Below, piece by piece: positions 7,252 through 31,850 of a stretch of DNA of 34,645 nt. Position 1 is the stretch's first letter, and each line of letters begins with the position of its first letter. Origin of the DNA: a virus; the IMG/VR virus record IMGVR_UViG_3300031167_000001, positions 1 to 34,645 of that record. One strand, given 5' to 3'. The notes below the pieces were generated by a model. The model was not told where the DNA came from. It made no database searches and was given only the letters and a program-made list of their open reading frames with translations. A program made the translations under genes and the position numbers.

Positions 7252-7264
7252 TTTTTAAATGTAG

Positions 7265-7297
7265 TTGGAAAGGATTTCCAACAAGCCCAGGAGGGCT
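7265..7297 (+). promoter_or_regulatory. two hairpins before the portal start, second one holds the ribosome site
   Basis: First hairpin 7265-7281: stem TTGGAA/TTCCAA around loop AGGAT, followed by CAAG. Second hairpin 7284-7297: AGCCC/GGGCT around AGGA; the AGGAGGG ribosome site at 7289-7295 lies in its loop and 3' arm, 10 bases before ATG 7306. The first hairpin has a close counterpart before the coat gene. A translational control element is inferred. Confidence 0.65.
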
Positions 7298-7305
7298 ACT
7301 ACAGT

Positions 7306-9174
7306 ATGGATGAAAAAGAAGAAACAGAAGAACACGAAAAAGAAGAGAAGAAGGATAAAAAGAAAGCCTCTAAAAAAGAAGAAGCTATCCTGGTTCAAGC
7401 CAAGGAGTTCTTTGAAGAGTCTCAAGATGGTTCTGACTTCAATCGTAACCGATATGAGGACGATACTAATTTCGGCAGGTTAGGAGATCAGTGGCCTCAA
7501 GAGATTAAGAGGCAGAGGCTTTTAGAGTCACGCCCTTGTCTTACCATTAACAAAATACCTGCCTTTGTTCGGCAAGTAGTTAATGATGCAAGACAAAACA
7601 AACCTGGCATCATAGTTTCCCCCGTAGATAACGGTGCAGACAAGGCAACGGCAGAGGTTATCAATGGATTGGTTAGAGCCATCCAGAGAAACTCTAACGC
7701 TGATATTGCCTTTGATACTGCGCTCGATCATTCCGTATCAGGAGGATTTGGTTTCTTCCGTATCAGCATTGAATATGCCAGCCCTGAGTCGTTTGACTTA
7801 GAAGCAAAAATTAACAGAATCCCAAACCCTTTGCTTGTTCATTGGGACGTTAACTCAACTGAGTTTGATGCCTCCGATTGGAACTATGCCTTTGTCAGTG
7901 AGTTTGTAACTTCAGACGATTTTGAGACTCGGTGGCCTGACTATGAACCAGTTTCATTTGAAGGTGATAATCGTGGTGCTGTTAATGATTTTCAGACAAC
8001 TAAAGATCAGATCCATGTAGTTGAGTACTTCTACCGTGAACCAATAGAAAGAACGCTGGTTGAGTTAAGCAACGGGATGGTTATTCGTGAAGATTCAATA
8101 ACTGATGAGCATCGTATGTTGATGCTGGTTGAAGACATAAGCATTAAGCGTGAGCGTGTTGTTAAGACTCACAAGGTAATGCGAAGAGTATTGAGTGGCA
8201 GCGCAGTTTTAGAAGAAGATGAGTGGCCTGGTGAATCAATCCCTGTCTGCCCTGTTTGGGGTGAGGAAATAATCTACCAGGGGCAAAGACATTTTCGATC
8301 CATGATTACTGATGCCAAAGACCCACAGATGATGTTCAACTTCTGGAGATCAGCTTCTACTGAGTTAGTGGCACTAGCTCCTAAAGCTCCCTGGGTTGGG
8401 CCAAAAGGTTTTATCCATCCAGACGATCAAGAGCGTTGGGATACGGCAAATATAAGAAGTTACTCAACATTAGAGTATGACGCAACAGCAGGTGGCGCAC
8501 CTACCCGACAAGGTTTTGCAGGCGTACCCGCAGGAGTAGTTCAAGAGGCACTAAATAGTTCAGACGATATAAAATCGATAATCGGCATACATGATGCCGG
8601 GTTGGGAGCAAGATCGAATGAGACCTCAGGAAAGGCTATTATTGCTCGCCAAAAAGAGTCTGATGTTTCTAATTTTCACTTTGTCGATAATTTGTCGAGG
8701 GCGATTCAATACTGCGGCCGATGCCTTGTGGAGATTATACCTAGTGTTTATACGGCAAGGTCTACGCTTAGAATTATCGGGAACGATCAAAAAGAAAAAG
8801 TAGTGCAGATGGTTAATGCTGGCAATGAGGGTCAGCCACCACCACAAGTTGATGAAGGCCAAGAGGTTGAAGACAAAATGTATAACCTCTCAGTTGGCAG
8901 ATATGACGTAACAGTAAAAGCTGGCCCAACATACGAATCTCAGCGTGAAGAAACAAGAGAAACTCTGATCGAGATCATGCGACAGATTCCTGGGTCAGCA
9001 GAAATTATAGGAGATGTATTGTTAGAACACATGGACTTTGAAGGTGCGGAGAAAGTGGCTGAAAGACTAAGGCCACCAAGCCCACCTCAAGCTCCACCAC
9101 AAGTTGATCCAGGGACGGGTCAACCAATTCAGGCACAACCACAAGCAGGTGGGATGCCGCCACAAGGGATTTAA
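7306..9174 (+). CDS. portal protein, P22 family
   Basis: The 622-aa protein opens with a very acidic/basic tail (residues 1-30, Glu and Lys), then RPCLTINKIPAFVRQVVNDARQNKP, AEVINGLVRAIQRNSNADIAFDTA and SGGFGFFRISIEYA, the hallmark N-terminal body of P22-type portals (Phage_P22_portal). The C-terminus is Pro/Gln-rich. P22 gp1 is about 725 aa, so this is a shorter form. It forms the dodecameric ring at one vertex, contacts TerL during packaging and the adaptor after it. Confidence 0.93.
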   Translation: MDEKEETEEHEKEEKKDKKKASKKEEAILVQAKEFFEESQDGSDFNRNRYEDDTNFGRLGDQWPQEIKRQRLLESRPCLTINKIPAFVRQVVNDARQNKPGIIVSPVDNGADKATAEVINGLVRAIQRNSNADIAFDTALDHSVSGGFGFFRISIEYASPESFDLEAKINRIPNPLLVHWDVNSTEFDASDWNYAFVSEFVTSDDFETRWPDYEPVSFEGDNRGAVNDFQTTKDQIHVVEYFYREPIERTLVELSNGMVIREDSITDEHRMLMLVEDISIKRERVVKTHKVMRRVLSGSAVLEEDEWPGESIPVCPVWGEEIIYQGQRHFRSMITDAKDPQMMFNFWRSASTELVALAPKAPWVGPKGFIHPDDQERWDTANIRSYSTLEYDATAGGAPTRQGFAGVPAGVVQEALNSSDDIKSIIGIHDAGLGARSNETSGKAIIARQKESDVSNFHFVDNLSRAIQYCGRCLVEIIPSVYTARSTLRIIGNDQKEKVVQMVNAGNEGQPPPQVDEGQEVEDKMYNLSVGRYDVTVKAGPTYESQREETRETLIEIMRQIPGSAEIIGDVLLEHMDFEGAEKVAERLRPPSPPQAPPQVDPGTGQPIQAQPQAGGMPPQGI

Positions 9175-9177
9175 ATT

Positions 9178-10098
9178 ATGAATGACTCAACATCCACGGA
9201 CGGAATTGAGGCAGTAGAAACATCTGAAGCAGAAATCACAGAAACCATTGATACGGACGTTGAGGATTCGCAAGAAGACCTCGATGAAAGTTATGAGGGT
9301 GACTCTGATGATGAATCAGATGGGGAAGAGTACCGTGAGTACAACTTTGGCGGCAAAGAATTTAAAGTGCCAAGAGATGCGTTAGACGATGAGACATCAG
9401 AACAATTCGAAGCCTATGGCAAAGGGTTGCAATCTGATTACACGAAGAAAACGCAAGATATAGCCGAAGCAAGAAAGCACATTGAAGCCAGAGAACAATC
9501 AGCAGAAAAACTACTCTCACTTCAAGGTGACACATTAGATATTTATTCAAAAGGTCTTGCAATACGTCAAGAACTTGCTGATTTAAACCAGATCAATCTC
9601 AACTCACTTTGGCAATCGAATCCCGATCAGGCCAGACAAGTTTCAGATATGATCTCGCAAAAACAGGCAGAGTTCAATGCAACAGTTCAACAGGTTAGTT
9701 CTAGGGAAAATGCAATGTCTCAACAGAGACAGGTTGATATACAAACACGATCAGCCCAGGGTGAGAAAGCCTTGAATGAACGCATCCCCGGATTTACTAG
9801 CAAGTCTAACGAGGTAGTTGAGTATTTCTGCAAAAACTTTGGCGCATCAAAGAAAGAGGCCGAAGCAAACTGGAGAGCAGACCCCGTTACAAGCGAACTG
9901 GCATATAAGGCAATGTTGTACGACAAGATGAAAGCGAATGTTAAGAAGGGGAGCAAGGTGCAACCAACTCCTGCAACTGAAACCAGGCCCGTAAAGGGGA
10001 AAGGTGGAAGGCACAAGTCAAACACTCCGACAGATAAAGATTCATCGGCAGCTTGGCTTGCCAAACGTAACGCACAACTAAGAAAAAGAACGGGATAA
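9178..10098 (+). CDS. scaffold protein
   Basis: The 306-aa protein has a very acidic N-terminal third, a central helical Gln/Glu-rich part (TKKTQDIAEARKHIEAREQS to SQKQAEFNATVQQVSS) and a basic C-terminal tail (GKGGRHKSNTPTDKDSSAAW). Position between portal and coat, composition and the basic end, which in P22 gp8 binds coat protein, all fit a scaffold. Sequence identity with P22 gp8 cannot be judged here. Confidence 0.8.
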   Translation: MNDSTSTDGIEAVETSEAEITETIDTDVEDSQEDLDESYEGDSDDESDGEEYREYNFGGKEFKVPRDALDDETSEQFEAYGKGLQSDYTKKTQDIAEARKHIEAREQSAEKLLSLQGDTLDIYSKGLAIRQELADLNQINLNSLWQSNPDQARQVSDMISQKQAEFNATVQQVSSRENAMSQQRQVDIQTRSAQGEKALNERIPGFTSKSNEVVEYFCKNFGASKKEAEANWRADPVTSELAYKAMLYDKMKANVKKGSKVQPTPATETRPVKGKGGRHKSNTPTDKDSSAAWLAKRNAQLRKRTG

Positions 10099-10120
10099 CC
10101 CCGTTTAATTAATAATGTAT

Positions 10121-10141
10121 TTGAGCAGGATGCTCAACAAG
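10121..10141 (+). promoter_or_regulatory. hairpin before the coat gene, twin of the one before portal
   Basis: Stem TTGAGC/GCTCAA around loop AGGAT, followed by CAAG, 22 bases before the coat ATG; GGAAGGA at 10147-10153 is the ribosome site. The loop and the flanks are the same as at 7265-7285, while the inner three base pairs differ with full compensation (GAA/TTC there, AGC/GCT here). Confidence 0.7.
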
Positions 10142-10163
10142 TCTATGGAAGGACTAATACACA

Positions 10164-11372
10164 ATGGCAAATTCACTAATTACACCAACCGCAGTAACCC
10201 GTGAAGCATTACGGATATTGCATCAGAAGTTAAATTTTGTAGGCTCAATAAATCGTCAATACGATGACCGCTTTGCAAAGAGTGGCGCAAAAATCGGGGA
10301 CAGTTTGAGCATCCGGCTCCCGAATGAGTATGTGGTGCGTACTGGTGCGGCTCTCTCCACCCAGGACACAGTTGAAGCCACCGAAACCCTGCAAGTTGCA
10401 ACGCAGAAAGGTGTTGATCTCAGCTTCTTGTCTTCTGATCTAACAACGGACTTGGATGACTTCTCTGACCGTATTCTAAAACCTGCTATGTCAGTGTTGG
10501 GTGCGGCTATCGAGAGCGATGCCATATCCATGTACGCAGACGTTTCAAAAGAAGTCTCTGACGTTGGTGCGGCTATGACCATCGTGGACGTTCTCAATTC
10601 CAGTAAAGGTCTTACAGATTCCCTTGCTGCTGATGAACGCACATTGATCCTGAACACTCAGGCGAATGTTGACCTGGTTGATGCACTGAAGGGATTGTTT
10701 AACGATCCTGCGAAGTTGTCTGAGAATTACCGCAAAGGCATGGTTGCTAATAACTTCCTTGGCTATACGGATGTTTACCAGAACACACTGATGCCTCTAC
10801 ATACTACTGGCACTGATGATGGCACTGGTGACTATCTTGTAAATGGTGCAAGTGAGTCTGGATCATCTATTACTGTTGATACGGGCGCAGGTACTTTGGT
10901 TAAAGGTGATGTTATCTATTTCACGGGAGTGAATAGTGTTCATCCTGAGACTAAGGCTGACACTGGAATCCTCAAGGCGTTTGCAGTTGCAGCTACAACT
11001 GGAACTTCAGCGACTGCCATAACCATCACCCCATCGTTGGTTGCATCAGGAGCCAAGCAGAATGTAACGGCTGTCCCTGCTAACAATGCCCCTGTGTTGT
11101 GTGTGGAGTCTGATCGTTCAACCGCAGTTGCGGCTTCTGCTGATTACGGTATCTCATTGGGATTCTGTAAAAACGCATTTGCATTTGCAACGGCTGATCT
11201 AATCATGCCGAAGGGTGTGGACTTCTCAGCCCGTGAAGTGATGGACGGTATTTCAATGCGTGTTGTTCGTCAATACACAATTGCTGATGACAAGTTTCCT
11301 TGTCGTTTGGATGTTCTCTACGGATATAAAACTATCCGTGAGCAAGAGGCAGTTCGTATCGGAAGCAACTAA
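10164..11372 (+). CDS. major capsid protein, P22 coat family
   Basis: MANSLITPTAVTREALRILH, then LNFVGSINRQYDDRFAKSG and AKIGDSLSIRLPNEYVVRTG at the N-terminus, and MPKGVDFSAREVMDGISMRV-VRQYTIADDK at the C-terminus, match the P22 gp5 coat family, an HK97 fold with an inserted I-domain. The Ala/Thr/Gly-rich section at about residues 200-300 is probably that insertion. The length of 402 aa is near the 430 aa of P22. It co-assembles with the scaffold encoded just upstream, and folding by host GroEL, with the phage GroES-like protein, is plausible. Confidence 0.93.
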   Translation: MANSLITPTAVTREALRILHQKLNFVGSINRQYDDRFAKSGAKIGDSLSIRLPNEYVVRTGAALSTQDTVEATETLQVATQKGVDLSFLSSDLTTDLDDFSDRILKPAMSVLGAAIESDAISMYADVSKEVSDVGAAMTIVDVLNSSKGLTDSLAADERTLILNTQANVDLVDALKGLFNDPAKLSENYRKGMVANNFLGYTDVYQNTLMPLHTTGTDDGTGDYLVNGASESGSSITVDTGAGTLVKGDVIYFTGVNSVHPETKADTGILKAFAVAATTGTSATAITITPSLVASGAKQNVTAVPANNAPVLCVESDRSTAVAASADYGISLGFCKNAFAFATADLIMPKGVDFSAREVMDGISMRVVRQYTIADDKFPCRLDVLYGYKTIREQEAVRIGSN

Positions 11373-14308: not shown

Positions 14309-15778
14309 ATGATGATTATAACAATGGACGTTGAACAATTAGAGCGATTCTATTCCAAATTGGATCAGAAGGGTAAGAGTGGTGGTGGTGGCGGTTCTGC
14401 GCCTCCTGCGGCTCCCGATCCTGTTGCAACGGCTTAATTGCTAGGCCAGTATTCAAGCGATTGAATATTAAAAATATCGGATGAATTCAGGGAAAGTCCT
14501 TCGGGATAATCCTGAGCCAAGCCTTATAGGGATATAGGGAAGGTGCAACGACTAACGGCATACAGCTAGAACAGCAATGAAGCCGACACGAGCGTCCGAC
14601 ATCTCGCAGAGATGATGATATAGTCTGGGCTTACTGGTAACAGTAAGAAATAAGGTTTAAATGGCCTTATGATAACAAAACCGAATGCACAAGGGGCTGC
14701 AAATAAAGCTGCGGCAATTAGTCAAGGCGAATTGGCTATGGTTAACCAAGCAACGCCATACGGGAATATTGAGTACACACCGAGGGGTGTTTCTGAGGGC
14801 TACAAAGATAAAGACGGCAAACAAGTAGCTGGTACTCCACAGTACACAGCAACCACAACGCTTGATCCTTCAAGCCAAAGACAACTTGATTTTACAAACA
14901 GAGCGGGTGAGCAGTATGGACAAATTGCCAATACTCAACTGGATGAGATCGCTGGAAAGTTATCACAGCCCGTTGATTTTAGTAATCTAGGGCAAGCTCC
15001 CGTTGCCGATCTGAGTACGCTTGGTAATACTCCTACAGCGAATTTTAATTCTCTGGGCAATGCTCCTACCGCAAACTATGACTCTCTTGGCAATGCTCCG
15101 GTTGCAAATGAGCAGACGAGGCAAGCAGTTCGACAAGGTATTCAAGATCGTGAAAAACCTTTTCAAGATAGACGGCTGCAAGAATTACAGAGCAGATTGG
15201 ATACCCAGGGAATAGCGCAAGGTTCAAAGGCTTATTCCGATGCCATGCTTGATAACAGCAGAGGTGTGAACGATTTCAACCTGGGGGCAGATAGCCAAGC
15301 ATTAAATCAAATGTCTCAACTGTATGGCTTGGAGGCGGATCAACGTAATAGAGCAACAAATGAAATTGGGCAACTTTATGGGTTGCAAGCAGATCAACGT
15401 GGTAGAGCGACAAATGAAATTGGGCAGCAGTTTGATTTTGCTAACCAAGCGAGGGATAGAAGCCAACGAGAGATTGAGTCCCAATATGCACTCGATGCCA
15501 ATGCAAGAGATAGAGGCGTGAACGAATTAACTCAAGAGAGGTCGATACCTCTAAATGAGCTTGCTTCCATGTTATCCGGTAGCTCCGTCCAGGGGCCATC
15601 ATTTATTTCAACACCATCTCCATCTATTCAGGCTGGGGATATTCAAGGCGGCACATATGCAAATTATCAGGGAGCGCAAAACGCTTACAACCAGCAACAG
15701 CAAGCAAAATCTTCTGCTAAAGGTGGCATAGGTAGCACCGTTGGTTCACTAGCAATAGCTGCGGGAACAGCTTATTAA
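14309..15778 (+). CDS. virion-type protein, split by a group I intron (join 14309-14434, 14684-15778)
   Basis: Exon 1 (ATG 14309, GGAGAG eight bases upstream) encodes 42 aa ending APPAAPDPVATA; exon 2 begins NAQGAANKAAAISQGELAMV, giving a 406-aa protein. The joined text PDPVATANAQGAANK is the pattern I know from N-termini of podovirus tail or internal proteins. The stretch between is the intron described separately. Exon 2 has repeats: three NSLGNAPTAN-like units (residues about 160-185) and LYGLxADQRxRATNEIGQ units. An ATG at 14669 inside the intron opens a false start of 369 aa. It is followed by the PAPS-reductase-like gene with a TAATG overlap. Confidence 0.8.
14435..14683 (+). ncRNA. group I self-splicing intron, 249 nt, no homing endonuclease
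   Basis: Core elements in order: P1, exon GGCT paired with AGGCC (14443-14447) giving the U-G pair at the 5' splice site after 14434; P2 hairpin ATTCAA-GCGA-TTGAAT (14451-14466); P5 with a UUCG loop (14497-14506); R segment GTGCAACGACTA (14543-14554); S segment GATATAGTC (14617-14625), pairing as P7 (GACTA/TAGTC); P9 CTTACTG-GTAA-CAGTAAG (14630-14647); P9.1 ATAAGG/CCTTAT (14650-14670); P9.0 GG (14628-14629) with CC (14681-14682); terminal G at 14683. The in-frame TAA at the intron start ends unspliced translation. The exact 3' splice site is inferred from reading frame and P9.0. Confidence 0.85.
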
Positions 15779-16506
15779 TGGTAATTCATTTTAGTGGTGG
15801 AAAAGATAGCTTAGTCATTCTGCATAAGTACAAGGATGATCCAGCATTAGAGGCCGTATTCTTTGGAGATACAGGTTCGGTTTATCCCCATATGATTCAG
15901 TTTGTTCGTGATACTTGCAAAAAGTTTAATGTCCCCCTGGTGATGGTCAAGCCAGAGAGGGATATGCACGAATATCAAGAAGAGCATGGGATACCATCCG
16001 ATATGGTTCCAACCACCAGATCACCAGAGTTTGCCCATGTTGCAAAAGAGAAAAAGCAGAAGGTTCAATCTCATATTCAATGTTGCAGCAATATGTTGTG
16101 GAAGCCTTTATACATGGCAACCCTAAAAACAAAAGACAAGGTTGTTTTTCGTGGCATTAAAAACTCAGATGAACATGGGACGTTGCCAAATGGAACGGTA
16201 GATGAGAACGGTGTTAAGTGGGTTAATCCAATATGGGATTGGACAGATGATGATGTGTTTAATTATCTTCTGAAACATAAAATTGAGATTCCAAAACATT
16301 ACAAAGATGTAAACGCTAGTTTTGACTGTTGGTTATGCACAGCGCATATCCACTCACCATCGGATAAGGCTCGATTAGTTTGGACGAAGAAAAACTATCC
16401 TACATATTGGAGAGCAATTACAAATCGCTTCAAGAAGTTACGGCAAGCGATCTCTGAGGAAATGAAAGTGATAGATACAACAATTGATTTTGTATTAAAT
16501 AAATAG
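15778..16506 (+). CDS. PAPS/APS reductase-like PP-loop protein
   Basis: The 242-aa protein starts with the PP-loop SGGKDS (residues 6-11), then GDTGSVYPHM, a Cys pair CCSNMLWKPL (C102, C103), PIWDWTDDDVFNYL near 151-164, and CWLC (C184, C187). These fit the CysH/phosphoadenosine phosphosulfate reductase family; the CC plus CxxC set matches [4Fe-4S] APS-reductase types. The C-terminal ECGLH catalytic Cys motif is absent, so sulfur transfer or nucleotide binding rather than sulfate reduction is possible. Its location among tail genes is common in phages but unexplained. ATG 15778 overlaps the previous stop. Confidence 0.8.
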   Translation: MVIHFSGGKDSLVILHKYKDDPALEAVFFGDTGSVYPHMIQFVRDTCKKFNVPLVMVKPERDMHEYQEEHGIPSDMVPTTRSPEFAHVAKEKKQKVQSHIQCCSNMLWKPLYMATLKTKDKVVFRGIKNSDEHGTLPNGTVDENGVKWVNPIWDWTDDDVFNYLLKHKIEIPKHYKDVNASFDCWLCTAHIHSPSDKARLVWTKKNYPTYWRAITNRFKKLRQAISEEMKVIDTTIDFVLNK

Positions 16507-31685: not shown

Positions 31686-31850
31686 GGCCGTGGGTATTTT
31701 TGACACCCCTGTAAGTCGTTGATTTTAAATAGCCCCAAGGGGAATCGAACCCCTGTTTCCGGCGTGAGAGGCCGTCAACTTTGGTCTGGCTGATCCTGTA
31801 ACAAGCTATAAAATCAATGAGATACAGGCGGTGTCAAAAATATGACGGCC
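31686..31850. repeat. long imperfect inverted repeat around the attP core
   Basis: The left arm (31686-31733: GGCCGT, TATTTTTGACACC, CCTGTA, TTGATTTT, ATAGC in order) and the right arm read on the minus strand (31850 to 31801) share the same blocks with a few mismatches. The arms are about 48 bp, separated by the tRNA fragment. They could be arm-type integrase sites placed as mirror images, or a long hairpin. Confidence 0.8.
31731..31774 (-). other. attP: attP core: 3' part of a tRNA-Glu(CTC) gene
   Basis: On the minus strand this reads as an anticodon stem-loop CGGC-CTCTCAC-GCCG with anticodon CTC, then GAAACA, a T-arm AGGGGTTCGATTCCCCT and the acceptor end TGGGGCT. Before the anticodon stem the match to a tRNA stops, and no D-arm follows. 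A tRNA 3' half beside an integrase is the usual phage attachment core: integration rebuilds the host tRNA gene. The host gene is thus predicted to be tRNA-Glu with anticodon CTC. Confidence 0.85.

Follow-up and report, generated by a model that had tools for sequence, protein, structure and literature searches.

A duplicated, covarying three-way-junction RNA over the start sites of portal and coat in a phage head module: a candidate element of translational control

Head assembly in tailed phages depends on coat, scaffold and portal proteins being made in precise and very different amounts, and feedback is a known logic in assembly. To our knowledge, how these amounts are set is understood for only a few tailed phages. 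Autogenous operators are represented by the MS2 coat operator, the T4 gp32 and RegA sites, and r-protein leaders such as that of S15. In P22, the scaffold protein regulates its own synthesis post-transcriptionally, and we know of no RNA site of such kind for this phage. The locus described here resembles the P22 case in that the head module is homologous and the proposed control would be exerted at head-gene mRNA, but the elements precede the portal and coat genes, not the scaffold gene.

The window (the whole stretch of DNA analysed, 34,645 nucleotides) is a 34.6-kb IMG/VR virus record (IMGVR_UViG_3300031167_000001, positions 1 to 34,645). Its genes include those for small and large terminase, portal, scaffold, P22-type coat and tail proteins, and it also encodes a CI-like repressor, an Erf-type annealing protein, a primase/helicase and an integrase; because of this gene set, from the terminases to the integrase, the phage is classified here, by gene content, as temperate and podovirus-like. 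The part of the head module that matters in the following comprises:

7306..9174 (+): portal gene (PHROG 156, E 2e-132)
9178..10098 (+): scaffold gene, starting 3 nt past the portal gene, with no leader of its own (PHROG 3927)
10089..10105 (+): small separate hairpin across the scaffold stop codon, found in phages with or without the element
10164..11372 (+): P22-type coat gene (PHROG 283, E 2.5e-60)

The stem of the hairpin at 10089-10105 reads ACGGG/CCCGU, and CAGG/CCUG in the relative L120; it is possibly a processing or attenuation site. Immediately 5′ of the portal gene lies a gene with a PBECR5 nuclease-like domain (Pfam PF18814; 6031-7251, +), which among the compared relatives occurs only in L121 and L130. 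Elsewhere, the window contains a gene for a GroES-like co-chaperonin (521-811, +), a 21-nt tandem repeat (CCCCAAAAAGTAGGATTCCTA; 1175-1216, +) outside the predicted genes, and a group I intron (14430-14647, +; 100 bits to Rfam RF00028) flanked by an acyltransferase-like and a virion protein gene. A phosphoadenosine phosphosulfate reductase-like gene (15778-16506, +) sits amid the structural genes and, among the compared relatives, is present only in the near-identical contig G006 (L113).

A sequence-only reading of this DNA had described two hairpins of the same design, one before the portal and one before the coat gene, and both descriptions proved exact to the letter: TTG GAA AGGAT TTC CAA CAAG at 7265-7285 and TTG AGC AGGAT GCT CAA CAAG at 10121-10141. 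From base composition, the 15 fixed bases are expected ∼6e-5 times in the genome, even before complementarity of the triplets is required; the whole record holds exactly two such copies. Folding indicated that the described hairpin is only the first arm (P2) of a three-way junction of 45-47 nt, of which the outer helix (P1) and a hairpin bearing the Shine–Dalgarno sequence (SD; P3) had been overlooked. The two elements, E1 and E2, are built as follows:

7259..7303 (+): E1, whole; portal leader, three-way junction (R1/R2 70.7/66.2 bits; fold z-score -3.05)
7260..7264 (+): E1, P1 5′ strand UGUAG, partner CUACA at 7299-7303 (its G-C pair is U-A in E2)
7265..7281 (+): E1, P2 hairpin UUGGAAA-GGA-UUUCCAA, the one described before (sequence and five-sequence alignment)
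7285..7296 (+): E1, P3 hairpin GCCC-AGGA-GGGC with the SD AGGAGG at 7289-7294 (covariation)
7299..7303 (+): E1, P1 3′ strand CUACA, ending 2 nt short of the portal ATG at 7306 (sequence and five-sequence alignment)
10115..10161 (+): E2, whole; coat leader, three-way junction (R1/R2 74.7/68.3 bits; fold z-score -2.85)
10116..10120 (+): E2, P1 5′ strand UGUAU, partner AUACA at 10157-10161 (covariation checks)
10121..10137 (+): E2, P2 hairpin UUGAGCA-GGA-UGCUCAA, the one described before (sequence and five-sequence alignment)
10141..10154 (+): E2, P3 hairpin GUCU-AUGGAA-GGAC with the SD GGAAGGA at 10147-10153 (alignment, SD analysis)
10157..10161 (+): E2, P1 3′ strand AUACA, ending 2 nt short of the coat ATG at 10164 (sequence and five-sequence alignment)

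Comparing the pairings of E1 and E2, P1 and P3 thus also vary between the copies by compensating changes. With the covariance model, the two sites scored 74.7 and 70.7 bits, versus at most 8.9 bits elsewhere in the window, where neither pattern nor model search revealed a further copy.

Relatives of the portal and coat genes were drawn from IMG/VR. The 15-base pattern alone was too loose for scanning the collection (at least 119 matches, with one true element among the matches listed), but a tighter pattern matched in five contigs, every time before a coat gene. The element, with different letters in its stems, precedes the coat gene in L120 (coat 91% identical) and in L174/L175/L176 (71% identical); L113/L155, whose coat and E2 are those of the window, was not counted as independent. 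When the covariance model (R1) was built from E1, E2 and L120 only, leaving out L174 and L137, it recovered both, directly 5′ of the coat ATG: L174 with 36.1 bits (E 4.5e-6 in 0.89 Mb) and L137 (coat 56% identical) with 24.8 bits (E 0.006 in 0.89 Mb). The element ends at, or no more than 3 nt from, the coat ATG in L120, L174 and L137; L174 and L137 have the coat copy only. The search among relatives that the sequence-only reading had called for therefore found the element before the coat gene in L120, L174/L175/L176 and L137, rather than finding it absent from all of them.

Compensatory changes in the relatives back P1 and P3 as well as P2. In the five-sequence alignment, which was fitted to the model and hence is biased towards it, and in which two of the sequences stem from one genome, 98.8% of helix cells were paired, compared with 27-50% when partners were slid. 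Two-sided changes were found in 8 of 16 pairs and in all three helices (two of five in P1, four in P2, two of four in P3). In a hand-set check of four sequences all 64 cells were paired, and 200,000 random redraws reached 60 at most; the minimum-energy fold of L174 is the full junction. Based on the covariation, the hand-set check and this fold, the junction structure is well supported, although five sequences from four genomes are still few. Since the fold is preserved in related phages whose letters in it differ, the element is real, and the earlier proposal of an RNA element under selection at the starts of portal and coat is strongly supported. Outside the pairs, the letters are as follows: the P2 loop, closed by A-U, is GGA in E1, E2 and L120, GAA in L174 and GGGA in L137; P2 and P3 are joined by CAA (by UAA in L137), with an extra base before P3 in L174 and L137; and the P3 loops are AUGGAA, AGGGAA, AAGGAG and ACGGAG, with a tetraloop AGGA in E1.

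By itself, P2 is a near-perfect DNA palindrome, and the leaders of close relatives differ by precise insertion or deletion, as might be expected if the feature acted at the DNA level (as an operator palindrome, promoter or terminator) or were a neutral recombination scar. Such an origin is nevertheless very unlikely. P1 and P3 also covary, and G-U wobbles are present, which leave RNA pairing intact but would break a DNA palindrome; moreover, the fold persists down to 56% coat identity. No promoter-like site was found at either element. An intrinsic terminator was rejected: P2 is followed by CAACAAG instead of a U tract, and neither location has a terminator-like site on the + strand.

The SD overlaps the P3 loop and 3′ arm in all copies, with a mean unpaired probability of 0.57-0.86, and is strongest where the structure is strongest (predicted SD duplex of E1, -10.3 kcal/mol). 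Unfolding the start region is predicted to require 4.4-13.5 kcal/mol where the element is present; in the closest phages without it, the coat leaders require 1.6-3.3 kcal/mol, and for the portal leader of L121 the value is 4.1 kcal/mol. The element-free L172 and L166 gave 1.3 and 8.1 kcal/mol, so this contrast is not universal. In the mRNA, the three helices would come together as a junction that runs up to the start codon and encloses the SD within P3, in its loop and 3′ arm; because the SD sits there, the ribosome would have to open the junction to initiate, and initiation would thereby be lowered. E1 would govern portal and the abutting scaffold gene, E2 the coat gene. Since scaffold follows portal by 3 nt and is leaderless, the two elements would span both translation units of the head module, and, as each unit has its own copy, one ligand could adjust both jointly. 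This ligand would most likely be a protein, at best guess the phage's own coat or scaffold protein acting in feedback when unassembled. Tentatively, we thus favor a cis-acting RNA for translational control of the head module, probably bound by a shared protein, for which a phage head protein is the likeliest candidate.

The same observations would also fit a junction that works without any partner in trans, presenting the SD and thereby fixing the initiation rate or protecting the mRNA: the SD lies in P3 of every copy with the predicted unpaired probability given above, its strength climbs with that of the structure, and element-free relatives have short A+U-rich leaders instead. This appears rather unlikely, as simpler devices would suffice to set a constant rate, as unpaired letters are kept too (the A-U pair closing GRA or GGGA, the YAA linker, the A-N-GGA-N loop), and as one genome uses the same fold twice, which is most simply explained by a shared protein acting in trans. 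A compact junction over the SD is likewise reminiscent of a small-molecule riboswitch or an RNA thermometer. A conserved core of the size needed for a ligand is absent, few letters in loops and junction are conserved, and the genes are structural, not metabolic, which makes this possibility highly improbable.

The sequence-only reading had likened the hairpins to CsrA/RsmA targets. Two GGA loops, one of them over the SD, do resemble such targets: in E1, E2, L120 and L137 both loops contain GGA, with a GGA-to-GGA spacing of 18, 19, 19 and 20 nt, and for bridging by CsrA more than 18 nt has been reported as optimal (PMC7652899). A host CsrA/RsmA dimer could accordingly bridge the P2 and P3 loops and block the SD. 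Furthermore, CAGGAUG in E2 and L120 matches the CsrB repeat CAGGA(U/A/C)G, and the P3 hexaloops, found in four of the five copies, all conform to ANGGAN. Other features weaken the likeness. The P2 loop of L174 is AGAAU instead of AGGAU; P2 has a loop of 3-5 nt on a stem of 6-7 bp, whereas most selected CsrA ligands have a hexaloop on no more than four pairs; and the GGA of P3 is expected anyway from the SD. Neither the phage nor the sampled relatives were found to contain csrA. The putative attP core, just past the integrase gene, corresponds to the 3′ portion of a tRNA-Glu-like gene with a CUC anticodon loop (31730-31773, −), and it matches 8 of 337 alphaproteobacteria (with 2-3 mismatches) and none of 321 gammaproteobacteria, from which the host is probably an alphaproteobacterium. 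CsrA was present in 8 of 58 sampled alphaproteobacterial genomes and in none of the eight matching the attP core. The host assignment is itself indirect, and regulation by CsrA is best called quite unlikely rather than excluded.

The distribution of the element is patchy. Neither full copy is present in L121 (coat 96% identical), where the flanks align and only the leader differs; the element is therefore dispensable. On the coat tree it is scattered, requiring four changes. Partial elements also occur: the 3′ half is kept before the coat gene of L160 (AAAGGACTAATACACAATG) and before the portal gene of L121 (AAAGGACTACTACAGTATG), and the 5′ half before the portal gene of L129-L134 (ATGTAGTTGAAAAGGATTTYCAA-ATG), where the GGA of the P2 loop is ∼7 nt from the ATG and most likely acts as the SD. 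We read these halves as two routes of decay from the full element; it is possible that an older half-element later gained the remainder. The whole records of the relatives and six named phages contained no extra copies (scores were at chance level or due to half-elements), nor did 82 more loci that were scanned. No gene was exclusive to element-bearing phages among the contigs compared, which are fragments. Close relatives without the element, or with half of it, are ready natural controls for a duplicated, covarying start-site RNA on head genes, which itself offers a short and testable handle.

More distant coat leaders, 20-60 nt 5′ of the coat ATG, are built differently. A GNRA loop caps a stem of five pairs, a conserved mismatch (A.C or C.C) lies five pairs below the loop, and UCCC...GGA holding the SD follows. 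Carriers include L177, L178, L189, L190, L198, L203, L251, L259, L285, L336 and L344, among others. Twelve of these leaders gave 95.8% paired cells and two-sided changes in five of eight pairs, and those scanned (L177, L181, L189, L198, L203, L210) had no Rfam match. Like the element, they consist of a hairpin and then a second hairpin with the SD, at the same location; unlike it, they have no P1, a GNRA tetraloop with the conserved mismatch, and an SD paired with UCC. The GGGA loop of L137 hints at a common origin of both designs, but is suggestive only. Both could belong to an old, fast-evolving family of start-site RNAs that environmental temperate phages carry in P22-like head modules, that is often lost or decays to plain ribosome-binding sites, and that a head-assembly protein would read. 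We consider this generalization unlikely; if true, such reading would keep coat, portal and scaffold in proportion.

Neither site matched Rfam 15, relaxed thresholds included (best 18.5 bits versus 48.5 needed), and a literature search found no published account of such an element. It is thus a new, uncatalogued RNA motif of a known type, the structured translational leader. With CsrA/RsmA leaders of the glgC type it shares a GGA in a hairpin loop and a second GGA at the SD, ∼18-20 nt apart; it differs from them in having P1 and a strict three-way junction, a short P2 loop, GAA in one member, and a host probably without CsrA. Its fold was not recognised as any of the MS2, T4 and r-protein operators, and its protein partner is putative; like them, it places a folded RNA across the translation start of genes whose products are assembled with one another.
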